Shown one piece after another: positions 32,001 through 44,255 of a stretch of 46,329 nt of DNA. The position numbers and the translations under genes were made by a program. The stretch spans positions 1 to 46,329 of the forward strand of contig JAAYBV010000004.1 of the NCBI GenBank assembly GCA_012744475.1, given 5' to 3'. The DNA comes from Phycisphaerae bacterium. Lineage in GTDB: Bacteria; Planctomycetota; Phycisphaerae; Sedimentisphaerales; Anaerobacaceae. Positions within the stretch are counted from its first letter, which is position 1. The number at the start of each line of letters is the position of its first letter. The notes beneath the pieces were generated by a model. It did no database searches. It was not told the origin of the DNA and was given only the letters and a program-made list of their open reading frames with translations.

Positions 32001-33494
32001 CCCGCCGGGCATAGTCCGACGGCGCCGGTGCTCAGTACTGACGGGGGCACGCTTCTCGTATGCGACCGGTTTCGTTCGCGGCTGCTGGCCATCGACTTGG
32101 CCGCACAGACGATTAGGGGCGAACTGCCCGTCGGCCGCGAACCTGTCGCCGCCGCCTTGACGCCGGATGGTCGTCGCGTACTGGTCGCGAATCTGCTGCC
32201 CGCCGGGCCGGCCACGAGTCCGCGTGTCGCGGCCGAAGTGGTCGCGGTCAATGCCGCCGATCTGACGCTTGTCGGCCGCATCGGGTTGCCCAACGGCAGC
32301 ACGTCCGTCCGTGGCATCTGCGTGTCCCCGGACGGTGCGCATGCCTACGTCGTCCACACTCTGGCCCACCACCAACTGCCAACCACGCAGGTCGATCGGG
32401 GCTGGATGAACGCCAGCGCCCTGAGCATCATCGATATCCCCTCGTGGCGCCGGATCGCAACGGTGCTGCTGGACGATGTAGATCGCGGCGCCGCCAATCC
32501 CTGGGATGTGGTCTGCACCGGTGATGGCCGGTGGCTCTGCGTGAGCCACTCGGGCACACATGAGGTGAGCATCATCGATCGCCTCGCTCTGCATCGCAAG
32601 CTCGACCGAGTTGCAGCAGGGCCTGAGGATGTGGCCAGCGACCTATCGTTTCTGGTGGACTTGCGCCGGCGCGTCCGTCTGCCGGGCAAGGGACCACGTG
32701 ACATCGCCGTTGTCGGACAGACGCTCTATGTCGCCGAGTACTTCTCCGATTCCGTGGCCACCGTCGATCTGGGTGCGGACTTTGCGGACACACTGGTGTC
32801 GATTCCGCTGGGGCCGACGGCTGGTACAACTGATGTGCAGCGGGGAGAGATGTTCTTCCATGACGCCGATCTGTGTTTCCAGGGCTGGCAGAGCTGCGCC
32901 AGTTGCCACCCCGACGCCCGGACGGACGGCCTGAACTGGGACCTGCTCAACGACGGTCCGGGCACGCCCAGGAACACCAAGAGCATGCTCCGGTCGCATC
33001 GCACGCCACCGGCCATGAGCGTCGGCGTTCGCGAAACCGCCGAGGCCGCCGTTCGTGCCGGTCTGCACCACATCCAGTTCGTGGCGTCTGGCGAGGCCAA
33101 TGCCTCGGCCATCGACGCGTACCTGAAATCTATCGAGCCCCTTCCGAGCCCGTACGCCGCAGATCAGGACCTCATCGCCAAGGCCCAGAGAGGCAAAGGC
33201 GTCTTCGAGAAGGCCGGCTGCCAGGAATGTCACCCTGCGCCTCTCTACACGTCGCTGGCGCCCTATGACGTTGGGACGAGCAACTATTCGCCCCCACCCG
33301 GCCGGACCGGCGAAGCCTTTGACACGCCCACGCTGGTCGAACTGTGGCGTACGGCACCCTACCTCCACGACGGACGGGCCGCGACACTCGAAGAGGTACT
33401 GACCAAGTTCAACCCCGAAGACCGTCACGGCAAGACCTCGAACCTGAGTGAGACGGAGATCGATGACCTGACGGCGTTTCTGCTGTCTCTGTGA
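29049..33494 (+). CDS. Tetraheme double-propeller protein resembling fused hydrazine synthase alpha-beta-gamma
   Basis: This exported protein has 1481 residues. After a signal segment (TLVVIAVLTLGAQTSANQA, ~37-55) comes an HZS-alpha-like region: a propeller at ~190-560 (HCILGGSHYAYTEG, GVIRDPDVSWDGRHVLFAW, FNSTRCVQTVDCWWTEVSN) and two c-type heme sites, CLGCH (653-657) and CVRCH (705-709). Residues ~900-1265 form a YVTN propeller (VLVIDSQTGAARARIPAGHS), the fold of HZS-beta. The end is a diheme peroxidase/MauG-like domain with CASCH (1283-1287) and CQECH (1391-1395), the fold of HZS-gamma. The start ATG follows AGAGGAG. The first ~36 residues are encoded largely by a long inverted repeat. HZS-alpha-like domains are common in planctomycetes, so hydrazine synthesis should not be assumed. 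Confidence 0.85.
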   Translation: MGTYRSQGGSGKRELADGLGRLRRGLHQQVRACRCHTLVVIAVLTLGAQTSANQADSWQAAVLEAQAQAASLDPGSDAFTAAAEELSVRAEREFPMQWDWCLQDAGPDFGRWLSASAASATARQAADKAIAELGADGSDLRNDFDHLVSQSAPAESRQWIELYLRAAGLRREMRLRNLHRHYPQWVFTKHCILGGSHYAYTEGQSDAQHERQFEPGAALCRLEIEGDRCAVRTLIDDPNGVIRDPDVSWDGRHVLFAWKKSDRQDDYHLYEMEVATGSIRQLTHGLGFADYEGVYLPNDDIVFNSTRCVQTVDCWWTEVSNLYTCDRDGRYLRRLAFDQVHDNFPTVMPDGRVIYTRWEYSDRGQLFVQGLFQMNPDGTGQTEFYGNNSWFPTSLLHARGIPGTQKVVATFSGHHTLQVGKLGIVDPARGRQENSGARLIAPVRETPADRIDYYGQDGELFQYPYPLSESEFVIACAPLGWSRNPTRFKLYWIAADGRRELLAADPDVPCNQAVPLVARPRPLVRPSLVDYTKTTGTCYLQDIYAGPGLEGVTRGTIQKLRVIALDYRAAGMGWNYNAGPAGDALVCTPAAIGNGSWDVKTVLGDATVHPDGSAFFNLPARTPVYFQAIDARGYAAQTMRSWLTVQPGENVSCLGCHELKNSTLPAQARPSKAFAAGPQDLAPFQGPPRGFSFSREIQPILDRSCVRCHNDARKLEERLGHVVTIPPCPAVASEADNETAFSLCSTAVTESLAKRRWSAGYLALVQATQKTLEGHLYLAGTSNALVNWISAQSVPDMLPAYSAGAARSRLLSLLADGHYDAQVTPEEIERIACWIDLQVPFCGDYQEASQWTAEEQQRYEHFLAKRRRMEELERRNIAALLEAYSLKTQAAAPAPGGDNGTGLSPSVLAVNAATEELYVAATGGRQILVIDRTTCLVHRRIDLPEVPSGVAISANGVSLYVTAGVPDGTVLVIDSQTGAARARIPAGHSPTAPVLSTDGGTLLVCDRFRSRLLAIDLAAQTIRGELPVGREPVAAALTPDGRRVLVANLLPAGPATSPRVAAEVVAVNAADLTLVGRIGLPNGSTSVRGICVSPDGAHAYVVHTLAHHQLPTTQVDRGWMNASALSIIDIPSWRRIATVLLDDVDRGAANPWDVVCTGDGRWLCVSHSGTHEVSIIDRLALHRKLDRVAAGPEDVASDLSFLVDLRRRVRLPGKGPRDIAVVGQTLYVAEYFSDSVATVDLGADFADTLVSIPLGPTAGTTDVQRGEMFFHDADLCFQGWQSCASCHPDARTDGLNWDLLNDGPGTPRNTKSMLRSHRTPPAMSVGVRETAEAAVRAGLHHIQFVASGEANASAIDAYLKSIEPLPSPYAADQDLIAKAQRGKGVFEKAGCQECHPAPLYTSLAPYDVGTSNYSPPPGRTGEAFDTPTLVELWRTAPYLHDGRAATLEEVLTKFNPEDRHGKTSNLSETEIDDLTAFLLSL
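29071..29156. repeat. 86-bp inverted repeat inside the N-terminal coding region
   Basis: The left arm is 29071-29095 (GTGGCAGCGGCAAGC...) and the right arm 29132-29156 (ending GCTTGCCGCTGCCAC). They match at 24 of 25 positions around a 36-base centre. It encodes about 28 residues between the start codon and the signal peptide core of the tetraheme protein. Confidence 0.9.
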
Positions 33495-33604: not shown

Positions 33605-33645
33605 TGCGCTCCATGCGAAGACGGTGCGACTGCAAATGAGAAGGA

Positions 33646-33728
33646 GTTGACAGTTCACGGTTGGCAGTTGTCGGCCGGGAACCAGGAACCTGCGAACTGA
33701 CAACCGACAACCGGGAACTGTGAACTGG
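33646..33728 (+). repeat. CAGTT/AACTG hairpin element E1
   Basis: The left half carries CAGTT-type units (GTTGACAGTTCACGGTTGGC), the right half AACTG-type units (AACTGACAACCGACAACCGG), with a short centre at ~33675-33690. It can fold as a long imperfect hairpin. Its right end (GTGAACTGGAG) overlaps the Shine-Dalgarno sequence of the first permease. Confidence 0.8.
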
Positions 33729-33737
33729 AGTCATGCA

Positions 33738-36215
33738 ATGACGATGTTGTGGCAGGATATCAGATTCGGGTTGCGGATGCTGGCGAAGAATCGCGGGTTC
33801 ACGGCGATTGCCCTGATTACGCTGGCGATTGGCATTGGGGCCAACACTACCATGTTCAGCATCGCCGATCTGCTGTTGATTCAGACGCCGAGGAAGGTGA
33901 AATCTCGCGAGAAGTTGGCGGTTTTCTCGATCAAAGACGACGAAAATACAGATTTTCGTTATTCTGAGTATCTCGCCCTCCGTGATAGTAGTTTGGCTTT
34001 TAGTGATCTCATGGCCGAGGGGGGTGGCCTTGAGAGTTTTTTCGCCAACCTTGTTCATGGGGATTCGGCCCTGGAGGTTAGGACGAAATACGTGTCGGCG
34101 AACTACTTTACCTGTCTGGGGGATGCTCTGGTCCGCGGACGGGGCTTTCTGCCCGAGGAGGAGCGGCGGGGCAGTGCTCCGGTCGTGGTTCTGGGTCATC
34201 ATCTTTGGCAGCGCCTGGGGGGCGATCCGAAGCTCATCGGTGAGTATGTAACCCTCAATAGCACGCGCTGTCAGGTGGTGGGTGTGGCAGTGAAGGACTT
34301 TGGCGGCGTCACGTTCGACAGTCGTGATCTGTGGCTGTCGCTCGGGAGCTACTGGACAGTGGTGAAGTTCACCCCCGCCTGGAGTGACCGAAGAAAAGAA
34401 CTACGGCTCAACATTGTCGGACGACTTAAGCCGGAGGTGACCATGTCGGTTGCCCAGGCACAACTGAAAGCTCTGATCCCACATTTCAAACGGGAATATC
34501 CTGAACGATGGAGGGAGCAGTCCTCAATCAACCTCCGCCCGCCGGGGCGACACGAGCTACATGGTGACATTGAAGACCAGACTCGGCTTGACACCTTCGT
34601 CAGTCTGGTGTTGATGGCTGTGTCTGCGACCATCCTGGCGATCGCCTGCCTGAACCTGGCGAACATGCTGATCATGCAAGGGGCCTCGCGACAGCGTGAG
34701 ATTGCCATTCGTCTGTCGCTCGGCGGGCGCCGTTGGCGCATCATCCGGCAGTTGCTCATCGAGTCTTTGGTGCTGGCGCTGGCGGGAGGCGTCCTCGGCG
34801 TTCTTCTAGCTTCCTGGGGTACGCGCATTGTGAATATCTGGGTAGTCCCCCATTTCTGGCAAACAACGACCTTTCGATGCGGTTCGAGTCTCAGGGTTCT
34901 GGCGGGCACACTGGGCTTGTGTGTGATAACCACACTGCTGTTTGGTCTGAAACCCGCTCTGCGCTTGTCCAAGAGTGATATTGTCGGCGAGATGAAGGCC
35001 TCCGGCGGCCGTGTGCTGGGATCCCTCCGGAGAAAACGGGGCAGTGCCTCAGTGACAGGCCAGATCGCCCTGGCTGTCACCCTGATGCTCATCGCGATCC
35101 TGCTGACGCGCAGTGCCTTGGCAATAGCGAAACCGGAATGTCATTTTTCCCTGGAGGACAAGCTGATCGTCAATATCGATCTGCTTTCCGCTGGCCATGA
35201 CCAGGTATGGACTAGCCAGATCGGCGAGGCCCTGGCGGATCATCTGAAGTCCCTGCCGGAGGTTAAGGCGTTGGGCACATCGGCCAAAGTGTTCTACGGA
35301 GGGGGTGGACCGATAGTGATTGGCGAACACCTGTCAGAGTCGGCAGGGCCTCTGGCACGTAAGGCTGCCATCGCCTGGGTCGGTCAAGATTACTTCACGG
35401 CCATGGAGATCCCGCTGTTGCAGGGGCGGCTCTTCAACCGGCTGGACTGTGCCCCGGACGCGGAAGAGGTCATGATCATCGACGAGAGTTTGGCGCGTAA
35501 GCTTCGCCCGGACGGCAACGCTTTGGGGTGTTTCGTCCAGTGGGGCCTGTTCACCAAGGCGGAGGACGGTCCCTACCGAGTCGTCGGGATCGTCGCCCAC
35601 CTGCCCAACCTGGAGGACGGGGAAGTCCATGCCCAGGTGTATGCACCCCACAAGTCGGATAAGCTGCCCTCAAACCTCTATCTGCACGTTGCGAACACCG
35701 GATTGGTGGACGGTCTGCGTCAGCGAATGATTGAGGAAATTCATAAAGTCGATGCCCGAATTTCGGTGAAATCGGTGGAAACATTGGCCCAGATACATGA
35801 TAGCAATTCCTCCGTAAAGATGGCGAGACTAGGTGCTCGTGCAGGACTGGCGGCCGGGGCAACGGCTTTATTCTTGGCGTCGCTGGGCATCTATGCAATC
35901 AAGGGTCATATGGTTGTCACACGTACATCGGAGATCGGCGTCCGCATGGCCCTGGGAGCAACGCGCGGCAGCATCGTGGGCATGGTCCTGCGGGAGGGAC
36001 TTCTGCTGACGCTGGCGGGCTTGCTGGTCGGGCTGGCGATAGGATTGGCTGTGGCCAAGGTATCGGCCAGTCTGCTCTACGGCATCAGCCCGATTGATCC
36101 GCTCAGCATCCTCGTGACGGTGGTGTTGCTGGGCACCGCCTCGCTGCTGGCCGGCTACCTCCCGGCCCGGCGGGCGTCGAGGATCGATCCGATGGTGGCG
36201 CTGCGCTACGAATGA
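33738..36215 (+). CDS. ADOP/MacB-type ABC permease 1
   Basis: This protein of 825 residues has the layout of the ADOP family (two tandem MacB-type periplasmic/FtsX permease units). It opens with MLWQDIRFGLRMLAKNRGFTAIALITLAIGIGANT, the family's N-terminal signature and first membrane helix. Central membrane helices follow at ~295-320, ~345-370 and ~395-415 (LNLANMLIMQGASRQREIAIRLSLG), and a terminal three-helix FtsX block ends in PARRASRIDPMVALRYE. Such permeases work with a MacB/LolD-type ATPase and a membrane-fusion protein in export or envelope stress defence. GGAG lies 7 bases before the start. It is the first gene of the operon and the one nearest the sigma-54 promoter. Confidence 0.92.
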   Translation: MTMLWQDIRFGLRMLAKNRGFTAIALITLAIGIGANTTMFSIADLLLIQTPRKVKSREKLAVFSIKDDENTDFRYSEYLALRDSSLAFSDLMAEGGGLESFFANLVHGDSALEVRTKYVSANYFTCLGDALVRGRGFLPEEERRGSAPVVVLGHHLWQRLGGDPKLIGEYVTLNSTRCQVVGVAVKDFGGVTFDSRDLWLSLGSYWTVVKFTPAWSDRRKELRLNIVGRLKPEVTMSVAQAQLKALIPHFKREYPERWREQSSINLRPPGRHELHGDIEDQTRLDTFVSLVLMAVSATILAIACLNLANMLIMQGASRQREIAIRLSLGGRRWRIIRQLLIESLVLALAGGVLGVLLASWGTRIVNIWVVPHFWQTTTFRCGSSLRVLAGTLGLCVITTLLFGLKPALRLSKSDIVGEMKASGGRVLGSLRRKRGSASVTGQIALAVTLMLIAILLTRSALAIAKPECHFSLEDKLIVNIDLLSAGHDQVWTSQIGEALADHLKSLPEVKALGTSAKVFYGGGGPIVIGEHLSESAGPLARKAAIAWVGQDYFTAMEIPLLQGRLFNRLDCAPDAEEVMIIDESLARKLRPDGNALGCFVQWGLFTKAEDGPYRVVGIVAHLPNLEDGEVHAQVYAPHKSDKLPSNLYLHVANTGLVDGLRQRMIEEIHKVDARISVKSVETLAQIHDSNSSVKMARLGARAGLAAGATALFLASLGIYAIKGHMVVTRTSEIGVRMALGATRGSIVGMVLREGLLLTLAGLLVGLAIGLAVAKVSASLLYGISPIDPLSILVTVVLLGTASLLAGYLPARRASRIDPMVALRYE

Positions 36216-36221
36216 GAAGGA

Positions 36222-36342
36222 GTTGTCAGTTCACAGTGGACGGTTGCCGGTTGGCAGCAAGAACGGGCGATTGTGGCAGGGCAACTGGGAACTGACAACT
36301 GTCAACCGACAACTGGCAACTGGCAACTGGCAACCGACAGCC
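36222..36342 (+). repeat. CAGTT/AACTG hairpin element E2
   Basis: The left side starts GTTGTCAGTTCACAGTGG and the right side has repeated AACTGACAAC / CAACTGGCAACTGG units. A perfect 10-bp inverted pair is GTTGTCAGTT (36222-36231) with AACTGACAAC (36290-36299). It fills the whole spacer between permeases 1 and 2 and is nearly identical to E3. Confidence 0.85.
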
Positions 36343-36353
36343 GGAGAGCGAAA

Positions 36354-38798
36354 ATGGGAACACTGTGGCAGGATATCAGATTCGGTTTGCGGATGCTGAG
36401 GAAGAGCCCTGGGTTCACCACTGTAGCGGTGCTGACGCTGGCGCTGGGGATCGGCGCGAATCTGGCGTTGTTCGGGATTCTGAACGAGATGTTGCTGCGG
36501 CCTAAGCCGGTGTCGCGGCCGGATGAGCTGCGGGCGGTGGTGCCGGTCAATACAGCGAAGCAACGCCTTCACATCCTTGTCTACCGGCACTACTACGACG
36601 CGATTCGGGAGAAGACTCGTTTTTTCAACGACGTCATCGGGTACGCGGATGTCGAGCCGAAAATGCGTACGGCTGACGGCTTGGAACGTGTTCAAGCGGA
36701 GCTGGTTACGCCTGGTTACTTCCCGTTCCTCGGGGTGCGTGCGGCGCGGGGGCGAGTCTTTGGGTCGGAGGAGGATGCGGAGGCCGGGGGGCACCCGGTG
36801 GCGTTGATCAGCGACGCGTTTTGGCGGCGGCAGTTTGGCGGAGCGCCGGACGTGGTGGGCAAGATACTGATACTCAACGAGACGCCGGTGGAAATCGTGG
36901 GGGTGGCCCCTAAGGGGTTTGGGGGGCTCGGTCCGCAGCCGGCGAGTTTGTGGATGCCGGCGAACATGGAGCCCGTGCTGGAGAAGTGGGCGGCGAGTTA
37001 TGAGACCGTGGGCCGGTTGGCGGAGGCGAAGGCGGTGGCGGCGGCGACGGAGTACGTGTCGTCGATCGTGGCGGAGGTGACGCAGGCGCTGTTGGCTTCC
37101 AAGCCAGCGGGACTACCTCTGCGTGGCGTCTACCCGGAGTTCACGGGGGTTCGGCTCGATCCGATCGGGCGGGGTCTGCTGGGTACGTCGTATGATAGGC
37201 CAAAGATCGTCAGTTTTCTGCAGTTCGGGATGGTGGCGACGGTGCTGTTGCTGGCGATTGCGTGCGCCAACGTGGCCGGGTTGTTTCTGGCTCGCGCTTT
37301 GCAGCGTCGGCGAGAGACGGCTACGCGTGTGGCGCTGGGGGCGACGCGTGGGGCGCTGATGCGTGGGGTGATGTGTGAAGGGGTGCTGGTGGCGGCGGCG
37401 GGCACGGTGGCGGCGCTGGTGGTGTATGCGTGGGTGGGACGGGGGATCATGAGCCTGGCGGATTGGTGGTCGGGTCCGGCACTGCGGCTGGCGCCTGACG
37501 TGCGCGTGCTGGTGTTTGCGGCTGGGGGTGCGCTGGCGGTTGGGGTGGGCTTCAGTCTGGTGCCGGCGCTGCAGGCGATGCGGTTCGAGCCAGCGGCGGC
37601 GCTGAAGGACGGTCAGGGGGCGGGCCGGCAGCGGCTGTGGCTGCGTCATGGGTTGATTGTGGGTCAGGTGGTGGGGTCGATTGTTCTGCTGTGCGGAGCG
37701 ATGCTGTGCCTGCGGAGTATGCGGAAACAACTGGCGGTGGATGTGGGATACCGCTACGACCGGCTGGCGACTGCTCAACTCGATCTGGAGCGGATCGGTT
37801 TCACAGAAGGGAGTTTCGAGCCGCAACTGGCCGAGATCGTTCGGCGGCTGCGGCTCATTCCCGGGGTCGAGCAAGTGGGCGTTGCGGGGCGGCCACCGCT
37901 AGGCGGGCAACAAGTAGGAAGTCTGCCCAGTGACACGTTTGTGCCCGAGGGCTACGAATCACCCGATGGTTGCTCCGTGGACTCCGCAATCTACAGCCGG
38001 ATCGGTCCGGGTATGTTCCGTATCATGGGTGTGCCTGTGCTGCGTGGACGCGAGTTTGGCCAGGAAGATGTCGACTCAGGGCGGCTGGTCGTGGTGGTGA
38101 ACGAGAGTTTCGCGGAGCGGTTCTGGCCGGGACAGGACCCTGTGGGCAAACACATTTATAAATGGCCGGTGATCGGTGTGGTGAAGGACGCGTGTATCAA
38201 TGGATACGACGACTGGCCGGGGCCGGCGGTCTTTCGCTGCGTGAAGAAGGCGGAGCTGCTCCATGCGACGCTGGTGATTCGTACGCGGGGGGATGCGCGG
38301 CGGGTCGTGGGCTCGGTGCGACGGGAGTTGGGGCGGGTCCATCCGCGGCTGGTAGAGGGGGACGTGCGGCCCGTGCGGGACATTGTCAAGGATGCGCTGG
38401 CGTTTCAGCAGGCGGCTTTGCGCATACTGGGGGCGCTGGGCGTTCTGGCGTTGGTACTGGCGTCGGTGGGGACGTATGGGGTGATGGCGTACGTGGTGAG
38501 CAGCCGGACGCGGGAGGTGGGGATCCGTTTGGCGGTGGGGGCGACGCGAGGGGACGTGATGTGGCTGGTTCTGTTGACAGGGTTGCGACTGGGATTGGTT
38601 GCGATGGCGATTGGGCTGCCTTTGGCGCTGGCGGCGGCGGTGGTGCTGCGAAACAGAATCGCGGGGGTCAGTCCGTTCGATCCGGTGTCTTTCGTGGCGG
38701 TTGCGGCGTGTGTGCTGGCGGCGCTGCTGGCGGCTTGCTGGGTGCCGGCCCGGCGGGCGGCGCGGATCGATCCGATGGTGGCGTTGCGATATGAATGA
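36354..38798 (+). CDS. ADOP/MacB-type ABC permease 2
   Basis: This 814-residue member of the same family opens with MGTLWQDIRFGLRMLRKSPGFTTVAVLTLALGIGAN. Mid-protein helices follow (MVATVLLLAIACANVAGLFLARALQRRRETATRVALG), then a second periplasmic region (~500-680) and a terminal FtsX block ending PARRAARIDPMVALRYE. It is more distant from permeases 1 and 3 than those are from each other, and its codon use in the second half is strikingly GGG/GCG-rich. The start at 36354 follows GGAGAGCG. The first ~45 coding bases, with the E2 spacer, are nearly identical to the start of permease 3, suggesting duplication or gene conversion of the junction. Confidence 0.92.
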   Translation: MGTLWQDIRFGLRMLRKSPGFTTVAVLTLALGIGANLALFGILNEMLLRPKPVSRPDELRAVVPVNTAKQRLHILVYRHYYDAIREKTRFFNDVIGYADVEPKMRTADGLERVQAELVTPGYFPFLGVRAARGRVFGSEEDAEAGGHPVALISDAFWRRQFGGAPDVVGKILILNETPVEIVGVAPKGFGGLGPQPASLWMPANMEPVLEKWAASYETVGRLAEAKAVAAATEYVSSIVAEVTQALLASKPAGLPLRGVYPEFTGVRLDPIGRGLLGTSYDRPKIVSFLQFGMVATVLLLAIACANVAGLFLARALQRRRETATRVALGATRGALMRGVMCEGVLVAAAGTVAALVVYAWVGRGIMSLADWWSGPALRLAPDVRVLVFAAGGALAVGVGFSLVPALQAMRFEPAAALKDGQGAGRQRLWLRHGLIVGQVVGSIVLLCGAMLCLRSMRKQLAVDVGYRYDRLATAQLDLERIGFTEGSFEPQLAEIVRRLRLIPGVEQVGVAGRPPLGGQQVGSLPSDTFVPEGYESPDGCSVDSAIYSRIGPGMFRIMGVPVLRGREFGQEDVDSGRLVVVVNESFAERFWPGQDPVGKHIYKWPVIGVVKDACINGYDDWPGPAVFRCVKKAELLHATLVIRTRGDARRVVGSVRRELGRVHPRLVEGDVRPVRDIVKDALAFQQAALRILGALGVLALVLASVGTYGVMAYVVSSRTREVGIRLAVGATRGDVMWLVLLTGLRLGLVAMAIGLPLALAAAVVLRNRIAGVSPFDPVSFVAVAACVLAALLAACWVPARRAARIDPMVALRYE

Positions 38799-38803
38799 AA
38801 GAG

Positions 38804-38918
38804 AGTTCACAGTGGACGGTTGCCGGTTGGCAGCAAGAACTGACGGTTGTGGCAGGGCAACTGGGAACTGACAACTGTCAACCGACAACTGGCAACTGGC
38901 AACTGGCAACCGACAGCC
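38804..38918 (+). repeat. CAGTT/AACTG hairpin element E3
   Basis: This element is nearly identical to E2 apart from a small difference in the centre (AACTGACGG for AACGGGCGA). It occupies the spacer between permeases 2 and 3 and continues into the same GGAGAGCGAAAATGGGAAC start context. Confidence 0.85.
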
Positions 38919-38929
38919 GGAGAGCGAAA

Positions 38930-41473
38930 ATGGGAACCTTGTGGCAGGATATCCGATTCGGTTTGCGGATGCTGGCGAAGAATCGCGGGTTCACGGCGAT
39001 TGCCCTGATTACGCTGGCCATCGGCATCGGAGCCAACACGATCATGTTCAGCGTGGTCAATACGCTGCTCTTTCGACCGCTGCCCGTCAAAGAGCCTGAT
39101 CGATTGGTGCGCTGCGAGGTCGGTGAGGCCCGTCTCCTCCCGTATGCGGGCTATGTCGACTTGCGTGACAACAATCCCGCGTTCAGCGATCTCATCGCCC
39201 ACAGTTACTACGGCGGAGTGCCCGATACCCTGGTAAGAGACGGTAGCGTAACACCTGTGGCGGCGCTGTTTGTCTCGGCCAACTACTTCACCGCGCTCGG
39301 GGCAGCCTCGCTCTACGGGCGGACGTTTTTGCCTGAGGAGGAAGTGGCCTCTGCCGAGCCGGTGGCGGTCCTGAGCTACCGAACCTGGCAGCGCCTGGGG
39401 GCGGAGCCCGAAATCGTGGACACCTATGTACATCTCAACGGCAAGCCCTGTCGAATCATCGGCGTGGCACCCAAGACGTTCACCGGCGCCGCCGTCGTGG
39501 GCCCCGACGTCTGGTTGCCTCTGGGGACGTACGGTCGTGTGGGCAAGTACTGGGTAGAGAGGTATGAGGGGACGGATGACCAATGGAACTACCCGCCATC
39601 GGCCGTCGTGGGACGACTCAAACCTGGCCTGGGGATATCCGAGGCCCAAGCGAGGCTGCAATCGGTGCTCCCACGCCTGAAGCAGATGTATCCCAGGTAT
39701 GCGAAGAGGTGGGAGCGAGAGAACGCCACGTTTCACCTCCGCCCGTTGCCCAGACTCAACGCCGGCGCGGTCGACAATGACAAGCCTGCATTGGATCGCA
39801 TCGGCCTGGGTTTGATGGGAATCTCCGGCGTCGTTCTGCTCATTGCCTGCCTGAACCTGGCGAACATGATCGTCGTTCAGGGGCAGGGACGCCAGCGGGA
39901 AATCGCCATCCGTGCGGCTATCGGAGGCGGGCGCCCGAGGATCGTGCGGCAGTTACTGATCGAATCGCTTCTCCTGGCCGTATTCGGTGGCATTCTGGCG
40001 GTGGGCGTGGCCCTCTGGGGCATGCGGGTTCTCAAACTGTGGGCGGCGATGGGCCGGCTGCCCTTGTACCTGGGCTCGGCCATCGCCTCCGGCATCGCGC
40101 TCGACGTTCGCGTCCTGGCGGCCACCCTGGGTTTCTGCCTGATCGCCACGGTACTCTTCGGCCTGAGACCGGCGCTGCGCCTATCGGGACGCGATCTTGT
40201 GGGTGACCTGAAGGAATCCGGCCGAGGCGTGCTTGAAGCGACGCGAAGAAGGCGATTTTTCGTACCGCGCGGCCTGTCGGTGCTCTGTCAAATGGCCCTG
40301 TCTGTCGCGCTGGTCATGACCGCGACCCTGTTGGCTCGAACTGCGCTGAGGGCTGTCAGGGCCGAACCCGGTTTTGGCCTCGACGGCAAGGTGGTCGTCA
40401 GCGTGAAGCCGTTCGCGGGAGGTTACAGCATTCCTCAAGCCAAACAAGCCTGCGAGACGCTGGCCCAGCGATTGAAGGATCTCCCCGAGATTCAGGCCGT
40501 GGGCCTGTCCTGTAAATCTCCTGTGGACCTGGGGTGGTGGCCCTGGGTTCGCGGAAGAGTCGTCGAGTATGTGCCGGGCCGCGAAGATGACGCGTCAGGC
40601 AGCCTGTTGACGAAGCCACTTCACGAGTATGAGGTGAACGGCGATTACTTCGAAGCGATGGGAATTCGGCTCTTGCTGGGTCGGCCCTTTCGCCCTCTCG
40701 ACAGCGCTCCCGATGCAGAACCGGTCGTGATCATCGACGAGCTTCTGGCCCGCAAACTCCGGCCGGATGGCAATGCCCTTGGCTGTCTCATCCAGTATGG
40801 CACTGGCGGGTTGTCGTCGCCTTGCCGAGTGGTCGGAATCGTACCGAATCTGCGGAGCGCTTGGGGCAATGATGACGTCCAACCCCTCCTCTATAAGCCG
40901 ATCGAGTCGCATCACATGCCCGGGTCCATCCATTTGCGAGTCAGAAGCACGGCGTCGGGAGCCGAGGCCGCACTCGTGCGAACCATCGGCGAGCGGATTC
41001 GAAAGATCGATCCTCGCCTGCCGGTCCTTGCGGTTGCGTCTCTGGCGGACCGACACCGCCATCATCCCACCGTCTTGTTCGCGCGCGTCGTGGCCCGACT
41101 GGCGGTGATGTTCGGAGCCATGGCCCTGTTCCTGGCCGGTATGGGCCTTTATGCTGTCAAGAGCCATATGGTTGCTTCACGGACCCCGGAGATTGGCATC
41201 CGCATGGCGTTGGGCGCCACACGGCGGGACATTCTGACCCTGGTGCTTCGTCAGGGGGCGATATCGACGGCTGTCGGGCTGCTGGTCGGCACGCTGCTGG
41301 CGGTCGCTATGACACGGGTGATACGCAGCGCGCTCCAGGGCATCAGTACCATCGATCTGGTGAGCATAGTTGTCACCGTGGCTATACTCACAGCGACTTC
41401 CGTGCTGGCCACGTATATCCCTGCCCGGCGGGCGGCGCGGGTCGATCCGATGGTGGCGCTGCGCCACGAATGA
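38930..41473 (+). CDS. ADOP/MacB-type ABC permease 3
   Basis: This 847-residue ADOP permease opens with MGTLWQDIRFGLRMLAKNRGFTAIALITLAIGIGANT and ends PARRAARVDPMVALRHE. The region from ~39830 (ISGVVLLIACLNLANMIVVQGQGRQREIAIRAAIGG) marks the first FtsX block. The second periplasmic region contains the repeated family pattern YEVNGDYFEAMGIRLLLGRPF and PVVIIDELLARKLRPDGNALGC, which is close to permease 1 (EEVMIIDESLARKLRPDGNALGC), so 1 and 3 are recent paralogues. Paired permeases of this sort often form heterodimers; that is inference here. Confidence 0.92.
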   Translation: MGTLWQDIRFGLRMLAKNRGFTAIALITLAIGIGANTIMFSVVNTLLFRPLPVKEPDRLVRCEVGEARLLPYAGYVDLRDNNPAFSDLIAHSYYGGVPDTLVRDGSVTPVAALFVSANYFTALGAASLYGRTFLPEEEVASAEPVAVLSYRTWQRLGAEPEIVDTYVHLNGKPCRIIGVAPKTFTGAAVVGPDVWLPLGTYGRVGKYWVERYEGTDDQWNYPPSAVVGRLKPGLGISEAQARLQSVLPRLKQMYPRYAKRWERENATFHLRPLPRLNAGAVDNDKPALDRIGLGLMGISGVVLLIACLNLANMIVVQGQGRQREIAIRAAIGGGRPRIVRQLLIESLLLAVFGGILAVGVALWGMRVLKLWAAMGRLPLYLGSAIASGIALDVRVLAATLGFCLIATVLFGLRPALRLSGRDLVGDLKESGRGVLEATRRRRFFVPRGLSVLCQMALSVALVMTATLLARTALRAVRAEPGFGLDGKVVVSVKPFAGGYSIPQAKQACETLAQRLKDLPEIQAVGLSCKSPVDLGWWPWVRGRVVEYVPGREDDASGSLLTKPLHEYEVNGDYFEAMGIRLLLGRPFRPLDSAPDAEPVVIIDELLARKLRPDGNALGCLIQYGTGGLSSPCRVVGIVPNLRSAWGNDDVQPLLYKPIESHHMPGSIHLRVRSTASGAEAALVRTIGERIRKIDPRLPVLAVASLADRHRHHPTVLFARVVARLAVMFGAMALFLAGMGLYAVKSHMVASRTPEIGIRMALGATRRDILTLVLRQGAISTAVGLLVGTLLAVAMTRVIRSALQGISTIDLVSIVVTVAILTATSVLATYIPARRAARVDPMVALRHE

Positions 41474-41479
41474 AGGAGA

Positions 41480-41598
41480 GTTCACGGTGGACGGTTGCCG
41501 GTTGGCAGCAAGAACTGACGGTTGTGGCAGGGCAACTGGGAACTGACAACTGTCGACTGACAACGGATAGCTGACAACTGAGAACCGACAACTGGCAG
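41480..41598 (+). repeat. CAGTT/AACTG hairpin element E4
   Basis: The first ~80 bases match E3, then the element diverges into other AACTG-type units (CGACTGACAACGG, AGCTGACAACTGAG, AACCGACAACTGGCAGGA). The terminal AGGA serves as a ribosome-binding site for the fusion-protein gene at 41607. Confidence 0.82.
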
Positions 41599-41606
41599 GA
41601 TCTGGC

Positions 41607-42869
41607 ATGGATATACCGCGAAAATCGGCGAAGCGTATGAAGATGATCCGGCGGGGCGTGATCGCCACGGTCGGGCTGGTGGTGATCGCGGCAGTTACGG
41701 TGGGCCTCTCGCGGCTGGAGCCGGCGGCGCCGAGCGTGGACCGCCGCACGCTCTGGCTGGACACCGTCAAACGCGGCTCCATGTTGCGACAAGTGCGAGG
41801 CGTCGGCACCCTGGTCTCGGAGGACATCCTGGTGGTTCCCGCCCTGGTGAGCGGCCGCGTCACCTACATCCGGGTTCTGCCGGGCGCCATCGTCGACGCC
41901 AACACTGTGATCCTGGAGCTGAGCAATCCCGATCTGGAGCGGGAACTGCTGGATGCCACTTCGCAACTGAACTCGGCCAAGGCCAGGCTGAGCGCCCAGA
42001 GAACGAGTCTGCAAGATCAACTCCTTGGAAACGAAGCGTCTTTGGCGCAATACCAGGCTTCCTGCGACGAGGCCAGGCTCCGCGCCGAGGTCAACCAGAA
42101 GCAGTTCGAGCAGGATCTGATTCCCGAATTGGAACTGACGCTGTCCCAGACGAACGCCGAGCGGGCCAAGCGCCTTCTCGAAATCAACAAGAGACGCTTT
42201 GAGATGTTCGAGAAGGAGACGGTGCCGGGGCAGTTGGCCGAGTTGCAGGAATCGGTGAGCCAGGCCGAATCGCTCTGTGAGCTCAAACGCCGGCAGATCG
42301 AGTCTCTGAAAGTCAGGGCCGGCACGAACGGCGTGCTGGCTCAGGTCAAAGACAAGATCGAGCCGGGCCAGCAGATTGCGCCCGGAACGGTGCTGGCGCG
42401 CATCACGAACCCGAGCCGTCTCAAAGCGCAGTTGAAGATCCCCGAAGTGCAGGCCCGCGATGTGCTCATCGGCCTGCTCGCGGAAGTGGACACGTACAAC
42501 GGCACCGTCCAGGGCGCCGTCTCCCGTATCGATCCGACGGTGATCGAGGGCAATGTGACGGTGGACATCACGCTGAACGGCGCACTGCCCAAAGGCGCCC
42601 GCCCGGATCTCTCTGTGACCGGGACCATCGAAATCGAGCGGCTGGAGGACGCGCTCAATGTTGGAAGGCCCGTCTCGGCCTCGTCGGAGGGGGTCTCGGA
42701 ACTCTTCAAGGTCGTCGAGGAGGGCAAGTACGCGATTCGCACGCGCGTGCGATTCGGCCGCGTCTCCGTCAGCACGATCGAAGTCCTCGAAGGGCTGGAC
42801 GTCGGCGACGAGATCATCCTCAGCGACATGTCCCAATGGGACGGCCAGGACCGGCTGCGCCTGAAGTAG
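41607..42869 (+). CDS. HlyD/MacA-type membrane-fusion protein
   Basis: This 420-residue periplasmic adaptor has one N-terminal membrane anchor (~17-35, GVIATVGLVVIAAVTVGLS). The flanking beta-barrel and half-lipoyl segment (VRGVGTLVSEDILVVPALVSGRVTYIRVLPGAIVDANTVI) is followed by a long alpha-helical hairpin (~110-235, with SQLNSAKARLSAQRTSL and LAELQESVSQAESLCELKRRQIE). The second lipoyl half (GVLAQVKDKIEPGQQIAPGTVLARI) and a membrane-proximal domain come last. It would connect the permeases to an outer-membrane duct or stabilise their periplasmic domains. The upstream ribosome-binding site derives from repeat E4. Confidence 0.92.
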   Translation: MDIPRKSAKRMKMIRRGVIATVGLVVIAAVTVGLSRLEPAAPSVDRRTLWLDTVKRGSMLRQVRGVGTLVSEDILVVPALVSGRVTYIRVLPGAIVDANTVILELSNPDLERELLDATSQLNSAKARLSAQRTSLQDQLLGNEASLAQYQASCDEARLRAEVNQKQFEQDLIPELELTLSQTNAERAKRLLEINKRRFEMFEKETVPGQLAELQESVSQAESLCELKRRQIESLKVRAGTNGVLAQVKDKIEPGQQIAPGTVLARITNPSRLKAQLKIPEVQARDVLIGLLAEVDTYNGTVQGAVSRIDPTVIEGNVTVDITLNGALPKGARPDLSVTGTIEIERLEDALNVGRPVSASSEGVSELFKVVEEGKYAIRTRVRFGRVSVSTIEVLEGLDVGDEIILSDMSQWDGQDRLRLK

Positions 42870-42874
42870 ACGTC

Positions 42875-42914
42875 AATTGGCAGTTGTCAGTCTCCAGTTG
42901 ACGGTTGACAGTTG
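42875..42914 (+). repeat. Left CAGTT array flanking the four-helix-bundle gene (E5 left)
   Basis: It has AATTGGCAGTTGTCAG, TCTCCAGTTGACGG and TTGACAGTTGGGG: about four CAGTT/GTTGA units of ~10 bases, in the opposite orientation to the array at 43327-43378. Confidence 0.8.
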
Positions 42915-42934
42915 GGGAAGGAAGAGCAGAAGTC

Positions 42935-43324
42935 ATGAGAAGAAATAGCTACCGAGACTTGGAGGTTTGGAGGAAGAGCATGGACCTCGTGGTGCAATGC
43001 TATGAGGCGACACGCGCCTTTCCCGCAAGTGAGCAGTATGGTCTGACGGGTCAGGTTCAGAGGGCGGCCGTATCAGTTCCTGCCAACATCGCCGAGGGGC
43101 AGGCTCGCGAGCACAAAAAGGAATTCCTTCACTACCTGTCCATCGCGCATGGGTCTGTGGCTGAATTGGAGACTCACATCGAGATCGCGAGTCGGATCGG
43201 ATACCTGGAGGTTGATGTGGCCCATCGTCTCTTCGGCCAAACTGAAGAAGTCGGCAGGATGATCAACGGCCTGCGGAGATCATTGCGTCAAGCTCGTCCG
43301 CAGAAGGGACAATCTGCCGACTGA
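42935..43324 (+). CDS. S23/four-helix-bundle protein (23S rRNA intervening-sequence type)
   Basis: This 129-residue all-helical protein has the family signature: YRDLEVWRKSMDLVVQCYE, FPASEQYGLTGQVQRAAVSVP, ANIAEGQAREHKKEFLHYL, SIAHGSVAELETHIEIA and a fourth helix ending INGLRRSL. Members are encoded in 23S rRNA intervening sequences and in many other loci; related Avd proteins assist diversity-generating retroelements, but no reverse transcriptase is present here. It pentamerises in known structures and has a basic surface. The start ATG 42935 has GGGGAAGGAAG upstream. It is inserted between the fusion-protein and ATPase genes of an ABC operon, flanked by inverted CAGTT/AACTG arrays, which suggests an element insertion rather than a transporter subunit. 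Confidence 0.92.
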   Translation: MRRNSYRDLEVWRKSMDLVVQCYEATRAFPASEQYGLTGQVQRAAVSVPANIAEGQAREHKKEFLHYLSIAHGSVAELETHIEIASRIGYLEVDVAHRLFGQTEEVGRMINGLRRSLRQARPQKGQSAD

Positions 43325-43326
43325 GT

Positions 43327-43378
43327 ACTGCAAACTGGAACCTGAGAACCGAGAACTGGAAACTGAGAACTGGGAACC
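43327..43378 (+). repeat. Right AACTG array flanking the four-helix-bundle gene (E5 right)
   Basis: About five units of ~10 bases: CAAACTGGAACCTG, AGAACCGAGAACTGG, AAACTGAGAACTGGG. It is inverted relative to the left array. It ends 5 bases before the ATPase start. Confidence 0.8.
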
Positions 43379-43383
43379 ACGAC

Positions 43384-44133
43384 ATGGCAGAATCGAACGA
43401 TGCACTGATCCGTGTGGAAGGCATGCACAAGGTTTTTGTCACGGAGGAGGTGGAGACCCACGCCCTGGCGGGGATTCATCTGTGCGTGTCGAAAGGCGAG
43501 TACGTCTCGATCGCGGGACCTTCGGGTTGCGGCAAATCGACGCTGCTGGCCATCCTGGGCCTGTTGGACTCGCCGACGGAAGGCGGCTACTGGCTGAACG
43601 GCCATCCGGTGGCGGACCTTTCGGCTTCACAGCGCGCCCGGATTCGCAACCGCGAAGTGGGTTTCATTTTCCAGAGCTTCAACCTGATCGGCGATCTGAC
43701 GGTGTTCGAGAATGTGGAGCTGCCGCTGACCTATCGCGGCATGTCGTCGTCTGAGCGGAAGAAGCGATCGTTGGACGCGCTGGAGAAGGTGGGGATGAGC
43801 CATCGGACCAAGCACTACCCGGCGCAGCTTTCCGGCGGTCAGCAGCAGCGCGTCGCGGTGGCCCGCGCGGTGGTGGGCGATCCGTCGATCGTACTGGCGG
43901 ACGAGCCGACGGGAAACCTCGACTCGACCAACAGCGAAGCCGTGATGGCACTGCTGGCCGGCCTCCATCGCGACGGTGCGACGATCTGCATGGTCACGCA
44001 CGATCCCCGCTACGCCCGTCACGCCAGCCGCACCGTCCACCTGTTCGACGGCCGGATCGTCGAAGAGGAAGAGGCCGCCCGCAGGGAACAGGAAGCCCGG
44101 GAACTCAACAAGAGCGGCTTTGACGTGGTGTGA
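43384..44133 (+). CDS. MacB/LolD-type ABC transporter ATPase
   Basis: This 249-residue ATP-binding subunit has Walker A GPSGCGKST (45-53), a Q-loop in EVGFIFQSFNL, signature QLSGGQQQRVAVARA, Walker B IVLADEPTGNLD and the H-loop in TICMVTHDPRYARH. EPTGNLDS is typical of the MacB/LolD/FtsE export group. It is the only ATPase for at least four large permeases in the operon and so is probably shared. The start ATG 43384 has no clear ribosome-binding site of its own; the sequence in front is the AACTG array, so the level of translation may depend on that RNA. Confidence 0.95.
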   Translation: MAESNDALIRVEGMHKVFVTEEVETHALAGIHLCVSKGEYVSIAGPSGCGKSTLLAILGLLDSPTEGGYWLNGHPVADLSASQRARIRNREVGFIFQSFNLIGDLTVFENVELPLTYRGMSSSERKKRSLDALEKVGMSHRTKHYPAQLSGGQQQRVAVARAVVGDPSIVLADEPTGNLDSTNSEAVMALLAGLHRDGATICMVTHDPRYARHASRTVHLFDGRIVEEEEAARREQEARELNKSGFDVV

Positions 44134-44140
44134 GACAAGC

Positions 44141-44236
44141 GGATTGGAGCGATGGAGTATTGGAATACTGGAATAATGGGTCGCAGTGCCGGCGCCCCTA
44201 CGGCATTCCATCATTCCACCATTCCATTATTCCATA
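44141..44236 (+). repeat. TGGAAT/ATTCCA inverted array
   Basis: The left half has GATGGAGTATTGGAATAC and TGGAATAATGGG. The right half has ATTCCATCATTCC and ACCATTCCATTATTCCATA. The centre (~44181-44203) contains GGCGCCCCTACGGC, whose CCCCTACGG end is shared with the GTAGGGG palindromes. It is built like E1-E5 but from a different unit, and fills the spacer before permease 4. Confidence 0.8.
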
Positions 44237-44255
44237 TCACTCTTGGAGTCATGCA

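Follow-up and report, generated by a model that had tools for sequence, protein, structure and literature searches.

An S23 gene between inverted heptamer arrays in an ABC transporter operon

The window (the whole 46,329-nt stretch of DNA analysed) contains an ABC transporter operon in which a small S23 gene lies between the genes for an HlyD-like membrane-fusion protein and an ABC ATPase. Its open reading frame runs from an ATG at 42935 to a stop codon at 43322-43324, and in a profile search the product matched PF05635 with an E-value of 4e-39 (133.5 bits, against a gathering score of 33.8). The gene is bounded on both sides by arrays of short tandem units that are inverted relative to each other. 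The features of this spacer and of the adjoining host genes, with the evidence for each in brackets, are:

41607..42869, + strand: HlyD-like membrane-fusion protein gene, host operon (PF13437, PF16576)
42867..42869, + strand: TAG stop codon of the HlyD-like gene (sequence; the S23 element begins about 10 nt downstream)
42877..42914, + strand: 5' arm, tandem TTGACAG / CAGTTGA units (Tandem Repeats Finder period 7; pairing score)
42935..43324, + strand: S23 / 23S_rRNA_IVP four-helix-bundle gene, 129 aa (PF05635 match, predicted fold, dN/dS)
43327..43377, + strand: 3' arm, tandem AACTGRR units, inverted with respect to the 5' arm (period-7 array score 14; Tandem Repeats Finder; pairing score)
43384..44133, + strand: ABC ATPase gene, host operon (PF00005)

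We infer from its MacB_PCD/FtsX neighbours that the ATPase gene is of the MacB type.

The motif CAGTT occurs three times in the left flank of the S23 gene (42881, 42895 and 42909) and AACTG four times in the right flank (43333, 43354, 43361 and 43368), and Tandem Repeats Finder assigned a period of 7 to both flanks. When the left flank was aligned with the reverse complement of the right, the local score was 32, compared with a mean of 15.4 for mismatched pairs. Window-wide, CAGTT/AACTG was counted 113 times against a shuffle mean of 54, a count reached by 0 of 100 shuffles; 32 of the 113 fall in the 599 nt of operon spacers, about 30 times the rate elsewhere. An earlier note had claimed an S23 gene between inverted CAGTT/AACTG arrays inside an ABC operon, and this held, with the unit now defined as 7 nt. 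The arms pair with each other in the minimum-energy structure, despite the fact that the element as a whole did not fold better than shuffled sequence (z -1.0; 15 of 100 shuffles equalled it), so that unusual folding of the whole element is unsupported. Membership of a known Rfam family was also rejected, there being no match at gathering score between window positions 33000 and 46329.

Gene-less hairpins in the other spacers of the operon

The remaining spacers carry related designs without a gene:

33644..33730, + strand: E1, gene-less hairpin, AACTGAC type (fold z -5.7; similarity 0.32 to the arms of L001)
36214..36345, + strand: E2, gene-less element, AACTGAC type, near-identical to E3 (fold z -2.3; alignment)
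38796..38921, + strand: E3, gene-less element, AACTGAC type (fold z -3.1; alignment)
41478..41600, + strand: E4, gene-less element, AACTGAC type (fold z -2.5)
44140..44241, + strand: gene-less hairpin, ATTCCA type, as in the arms of S23 locus L005 (fold z -3.6; similarity 0.30 to the L005 arms)

An inverted design was present in all four of the gene-less spacers E1-E4, as the earlier note had stated, and the folds beat nearly all shuffles. That description needs one correction: the left arms of E3 and E4 are built of GGTTG units, which are related to CAGTT, and an exact CAGTT is absent from them. Downstream of the ATPase gene, the spacer has the same inverted design as E1-E4, but with ATTCCA as its unit. 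In two relatives, G001 and G004, an ATTCCA element occupies the spacer before the HlyD gene in place of E4, although the preceding gene may differ there.

E2 and E3 are near-identical together with the start of the MacB gene that follows each of them (window positions 36190-36365 and 38770-38945). In G004, different MacB genes lie beside the same operon core. Given the E2/E3 copies and these MacB differences, it is possible that the hairpins act as joints for the shuffling of operon genes.

The S23 protein is under purifying selection and its predicted fold resembles Avd

The S23 gene is under purifying selection, with dN/dS values of 0.10 (against G001), 0.11, 0.08 and 0.15, compared with 0.066 and 0.156 for neighbouring genes. 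An in-frame stop was present in 11 of the 196 S23 loci entered into the analysis. Nine S23 proteins had pI values of 7.8-9.4, and the residues invariant in 45 sequences include Q40, S47, P49, N51, E54, G55, S74 and E77, with R43 also invariant or nearly so. The predicted model (pLDDT 94.7) has the four-helix-bundle fold of solved PF05635 members and matches the S23 structures 2gsc (TM 0.85, rmsd 0.7) and 2rld. A weaker match was obtained to Avd, the four-helix-bundle protein of diversity-generating retroelements (4dwl, TM 0.74, Foldseek E 0.036), and also to Avd in the DGR ribonucleoprotein 8ub7; here identity was only about 10%.

The Avd match (4dwl, 8ub7) speaks for a retroelement, in which a reverse transcriptase supplied in trans would copy the hairpin RNA and S23 would serve as its Avd-like partner. 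Against this, RVT_1 had no match in our own genome (G000, 99.6% complete), nor in the S23-rich relatives G020 (13 S23 genes) and G008 (9 S23 genes). In a search limited to PF00078, 34 of 61 genomes, G000 among them, were without a match, and an RVT_1-family reverse transcriptase is therefore not needed in every host. We consider reverse transcription in trans very unlikely.

Inverted arms are common around S23 genes

G000 contains seven PF05635 matches. Read by eye, all seven loci appear to be bounded by inverted arrays of short units, L006 only weakly, and the units differ from locus to locus (CAGTTGA, GTGAAGC, GTCGCTC, TTTGAAG, TGGAATA, TTTACGA and CGAAATC). Several of the other loci sit in V-ATPase, groES-groEL and leuC-leuD spacers; here and below, neighbour names outside profile matches and annotated plasmid records were assigned by eye. 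PF05635 was matched in 53 of 61 genomes in a sample of relatives and in 77 of 149 in a sample of the phylum (own genome counted in both), and a scan of named genomes yielded at least 80 S23 loci from many phyla. From 40 fetched loci, L277 (internal stop) and L278 (cut) were left out. Of 29 loci from a protein search, 20 were entered; L351 duplicates L007, L361 has a stop, L364 as well as L369 are cut, and L374-L378 were also left aside.

The left flank complemented the right above the 99th percentile of the null in 24/34, 57/79 and 20/22 loci in three samples, the null being pairs of segments taken with identical geometry from other parts of those loci. Three loci near a contig end were dropped from these samples, as were 6 of 28 phylum loci in which the motif found no S23 frame. 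In comparisons across loci (34 of 36 loci used), a locus's own right flank was the best match to its left flank in 18 of 34 cases. Where an arm contained a strong array, its period was 7 in 87 cases, 8 in 23 and 9 in 4. With all sets pooled, the inverted score was 26 or more in 133 of 192 S23 loci from several phyla; the other 59 fell below this value, some with an arm on one side only or with none.

Among the 133 loci with a score of at least 26, 107 had a G-rich 5' arm and 21 a C-rich one, with 5 ties. This polarity, with a mostly G-rich 5' arm and a C-rich 3' arm, is one that any mechanism should account for. Where a neighbour lay within 250 nt, the upstream gene was on the same strand as S23 in 103 of 114 cases and the downstream gene in 95 of 115 (neighbours being simple longest ORFs). 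An exception to the codirectional rule is L412, on the Nostoc edaphicum plasmid pNe_5, where S23 lies between two ribonucleotide reductase genes on the opposite strand, with long GGGAGTA arms.

The association of S23 with inverted arrays is real and more general than the earlier note supposed. That note had proposed looking for CAGTT/AACTG arrays around other S23 genes. The inverted design proved common, but CAGTT is only one of many unit types, because of which a survey for CAGTT alone would have failed. A CAGTT-specific element is rejected.

Arm sequence tends to follow the S23 protein

We compared the arms of S23 loci lying between different neighbours (177 of 196 loci). Arm similarity rose with S23 identity, being 0.124 below 35% identity (n=4233), 0.121 at 35-45% (n=7437), 0.137 at 45-55% (n=3338), 0.179 at 55-65% (n=255), 0.299 at 65-75% (n=76) and 0.285 above 75% (n=12). 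Control flanks 345-420 nt away remained flat over the same bins (0.143-0.161). A Mantel test gave rho 0.117 (p 0.002) for the arms and -0.005 (p 0.61) for the control flanks. Pairs with the same neighbours and S23 identity below 50% (n=100) had an arm similarity of 0.140, near the baseline. The neighbour filter, a short blastp, fails to catch some homologous neighbours (for instance at L352/L353, where leuCD was read in both cases), and many of the high-identity pairs stem from L007-type loci picked by protein search. In a smaller test (125 of 138 loci), rho for the arms was 0.148 in cross-phylum pairs (p 0.001); for the 121 of these loci with control flanks it was 0.157 (p 0.001), with the control flanks also weakly correlated (0.051, p 0.021).

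Arm sequence tends to follow the S23 protein and not the place of insertion; this is shown by sequence, as a trend with exceptions. The S23 proteins of L265 and L003 are 76% identical, but their arm similarity is 0.11. In the V-ATPase D spacer of four species of the same genus as G000, each has an S23 element with flanks 84-95% identical and arms that differ. By eye, the S23 proteins of G000 and G003 at this site look related and the other two look different, so that G000 and G003 combine related proteins with unlike arms.

The 14 L007-type loci that were read (at least 61% identity; L351-L364) include positions that were named by eye as leuC-leuD, V-ATPase D and upstream of dnaJ, besides others. 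In 11 of them the left arm is as expected, with CGAAATC or CTAAATC units running into a conserved AAATGACC-like start; L357, L363 and L364 deviate in part from this pattern. The right arm was recognisable within 130 nt in 11 of the 14, and was short or absent in L353, L360 and L362.

These data bear on an arrays-first explanation, in which heptamer repeats spread by slippage and recombination, S23 being a host gene often located among them. In its favour, heptamers such as TAACTGA have been described between genes with no S23 link noted (PMC4679880), and units are mixed within some V-ATPase arrays. It is opposed by the tendency of arms to follow the protein across unrelated sites and by sites that are near-identical except for a whole element, which is either there or missing (see below). 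We rate arrays-first as very unlikely. A separate observation concerns L225-L226 (G000 contig C6), where GTCGCTC and GTATCTC units are mixed in and near the V-ATPase operon, as if one were replacing another.

Gene-less relatives across genomes

The gene-less arrays found in the window and in 394 kb of G000 (13 in all) had a similarity of 0.298 to the arms of that genome's own seven S23 loci. Random sets of seven other loci gave a mean of 0.166 and a maximum of 0.269, and 0 of 1000 sets did as well; four same-genus loci were left out of these sets and G+C was not matched. Taken singly, 5 of the 13 arrays find a better match among 125 other loci, including a GTATCTC array unlike every own S23 arm (0.10), and E4 ties at 0.35. 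In samples of about 200 kb, period-7 arrays numbered 2, 6 and 3 in genomes with 8, 13 and 11 S23 matches, and none were found in four genomes with 0 or 1 S23 match. G006, which has no PF05635 match, had 4 such arrays in 197 kb, and G000 had 15 in 394 kb sampled largely around its S23 genes.

The CGAAATC type also exists as a gene-less hairpin of about 150 nt, with 34 matches in G000, 44 in G004 and 38 in G005, both strands counted. One palindromic copy may be counted twice, once per strand, and candidates were scored in part (21 of 69 in G000); the matches in G000 represent at least 21 places, none of them at a PF05635 match. The hairpin of G004 folds with a z of -4.4, and the copies that were read were judged by eye to be extragenic. 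At several sites, again by eye and without a scored alignment, the gene-less copies share both ends with L007-type S23 elements, as an internal-deletion derivative would. G004 and G038 have many CGAAATC copies and no L007-type S23. The presence of an L007-type S23 was not a significant predictor of gene-less copies (Fisher p 0.076, from a table counted by hand).

The view of E1-E4 as gene-less relatives of the S23 element, put forward in the earlier note, is supported, in that the gene-less arrays resemble the genome's own S23 arms. That they are miniature derivatives, as was also claimed, is an inference: gene loss is suggested only for the CGAAATC type, because its gene-less copies retain sequence resembling the surroundings of an S23 start. 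The same note held that arrays occurring widely in genomes lacking any S23 gene would refute its proposal, and this is partly met by the CGAAATC copies in G004 and G038, which lack the matching S23 type.

A different enzyme might instead mobilise the hairpins, either Y1/RAYT or some other transposase, S23 being cargo or an accessory. REPIN-RAYT systems have a similar layout (PMC3116915), and Y1 transposase gave one match in G000 and some in 30 of 37 genomes, the own genome included. However, G010, G011, G039, G040, G044 and G045 have 2-6 Y1 matches and no CGAAATC match, so that Y1 counts do not track gene-less copies; moreover, the arms track S23 protein identity and the gene in the loop is S23. 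Y1/RAYT mobilisation is accordingly lowered to an unlikely alternative.

Filled and empty sites

Operons with and without the S23 gene, for which the earlier note had proposed to search, were found at the window's own spacer, at V-ATPase sites and on cyanobacterial plasmids. The window's spacer holds the S23 element in G000 and G001, a gene-less CGAAATC element in G004 and just 28 nt in the more distant G012; the adjoining ATPase gene is 94.7% identical between G001 and G004. At one site in the V-ATPase operon, G000 and G005 are empty, G004 is filled and G003 has a remnant. At the site after it, G000 carries the element and G005 is empty; G003 lacks S23 there, and in G004 an S23 match lies close to a stop codon.

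The clearest example is a family of cyanobacterial conjugative plasmids, in which an S23 element of about 430 nt is present in Trichormus variabilis 0441 and Scytonema NIES-4073. Five plasmids have no S23 element at the same site, and Nostoc C052 has a left arm followed by an apparently decayed S23 start. The filled Trichormus 0441 and empty Tolypothrix PCC 7712 plasmids are 98.4% identical in the upstream gene and 97.4% in the downstream gene. Here the empty GTAATTAAC of Tolypothrix PCC 7712 corresponds to GTAAT-element-GTAATTAAC in Trichormus 0441, a 5-bp duplication of GTAAT that includes the upstream TAA stop. In Aulosira laxa NIES-50 the site is empty on plasmid3, and an 82.8%-identical element lies elsewhere, on plasmid2. 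Four more plasmid sites, as well as the PCC 7003/7002 pair, exist in filled and empty states, at or beside the upstream stop codon. Wherever filled sites were compared with empty ones, the element started at or beside that codon. Duplications were less uniform: a clean GTAAT at one site, CTA/TTCTA (3-5 bp) at another and no clear one elsewhere. Plasmid pairs suitable for testing mobility are available in cyanobacterial strains. Separately, one Nostoc plasmid carries a gene-less palindrome (about 115 nt, with arms of AATTCAGGAGTCAG; L436, positions 430-674, compared with L430) that a second one lacks in the homologous spacer.

A further possibility, not exclusive with mobility, is that of a domesticated regulatory hairpin, S23 binding an inter-cistronic hairpin and setting the RNase III processing or translation of the operon. 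The purifying selection on S23 and the location at operon stop codons favour it, as does the cutting of rRNA intervening sequences by RNase III (PMC4990558). Close relatives differ in the state of a given site, which speaks against a role fixed in the host, and we regard this alternative as unlikely.

A probable mobile hairpin element with S23 as its only gene

We consider it likely, with a probability of about 0.75, that the window locus represents a copy of a mobile hairpin element carrying no gene but S23. The reading of the earlier note, of a mobile hairpin element with S23 as its coding member, is supported by arm-protein co-inheritance and by the filled and empty sites. The architecture, the co-inheritance of arms and protein as a trend, the presence or absence of whole units in close relatives, the stop-codon placement and the selection on S23 are shown by sequence. 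The element consists of two inverted arms of short, mostly 7-nt tandem units with S23 in the loop, and in our model would insert between co-transcribed genes, at the upstream stop codon and before the next start. As the operon would not be ended by it, the element would ride within operons. S23 subfamilies would tend to travel with their own arm sequence, same-armed gene-less hairpins spreading alongside. We infer that S23 may bind the hairpin that encodes it, in the form of RNA or single-stranded DNA, and that, like Avd, its relative in fold, it is probably an oligomer that is small and mildly basic. It may further promote copying or insertion, the chemical steps being left to host enzymes; this too is inferred. 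S23 has no known catalytic function and no transposition has been seen.

The architecture is both IVS-like and REPIN-like. In Coxiella, the 23S rRNA intervening sequence (IVS) has an S23 ORF inside a 28-bp stem (PMC4990558), and rRNA insertions with an IVP ORF, as well as short ones without any ORF, have been reported (PMC11270868). Horizontal spread has been proposed for the S23-bearing rRNA intervening sequences. Our elements share the S23 ORF within terminal inverted repeats, but lie at stop codons in the spacers of protein operons and not in an rRNA gene, with several copies per genome, locus-specific 7-nt arm units and gene-less copies. The likeness to rRNA intervening sequences drawn in the earlier note is supported at the level of architecture only, with no IVS sequence comparison behind it. 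REPINs are likewise hairpins of inverted repeats dispersed in extragenic DNA, as the CGAAATC copies are, and a REPIN type matches a protein gene flanked by the same repeats (PMC3116915). In contrast, the protein here is S23 and not a Y1 tyrosine transposase, and its gene is enclosed by the hairpin, lies within operons and has several differing copies in a genome.

The arms also recall the TAACTGA heptamers of Beggiatoaceae, Cyanobacteria and Bacteroidetes, 7-nt intergenic tandem arrays often found just before a start codon, which the AACTGAC unit resembles. Cyanobacterial STRR are similar intergenic heptamer repeats. However, PMC4679880 counts direct repeats, whereas the arms here are inverted around S23 or a short loop. 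A term search of that paper found no mention of S23, and no link between S23 and heptamer arms was found in the open-licence literature searched, which leaves out most subscription journals.

S23 genes in operons and cas loci

The S23/IVP gene family is widespread, its function is unknown, and it has been met chiefly in insertions within ribosomal RNA. If S23 does drive its own element, this would explain the occurrence of S23 between V-ATPase, groESL, leuCD, carAB and sdhAB genes (by eye) and cas genes (annotated records), give intergenic heptamer repeats an origin and make the rRNA intervening sequences part of a broader class. The findings suggest a mobile element of a kind that is widespread but has gone unrecognised, and one that targets stop codons and spares operons without a known recombinase would be a new mechanism. 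A bolder reading combines several proposals: S23 would be the mobility factor of a phylum-crossing class of stop-codon-targeting hairpins without a recognised transposase or reverse transcriptase, the rRNA intervening sequences would be members that landed in rRNA, much heptamer DNA would be debris, and S23-CRISPR links would in part be insertions into cas operons. Taken jointly, we think the balance tips slightly against it.

With regard to CRISPR, 18 23S_rRNA_IVP genes have been described in cas loci, for example between cmr3 and cmr2 (PMC3936711), and such guilt-by-association links may reflect insertion if the model is correct. In Picosynechococcus PCC 7003 (L411), S23 lies between cas10 and cmr3, and the cmr site is empty on pAQ6 of PCC 7002. 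In Anabaena sp. 90 (L413), it lies between cas6 and cas4. These plasmid arrangements, cas10-S23-cmr3 and cas6-S23-cas4, look like insertions.
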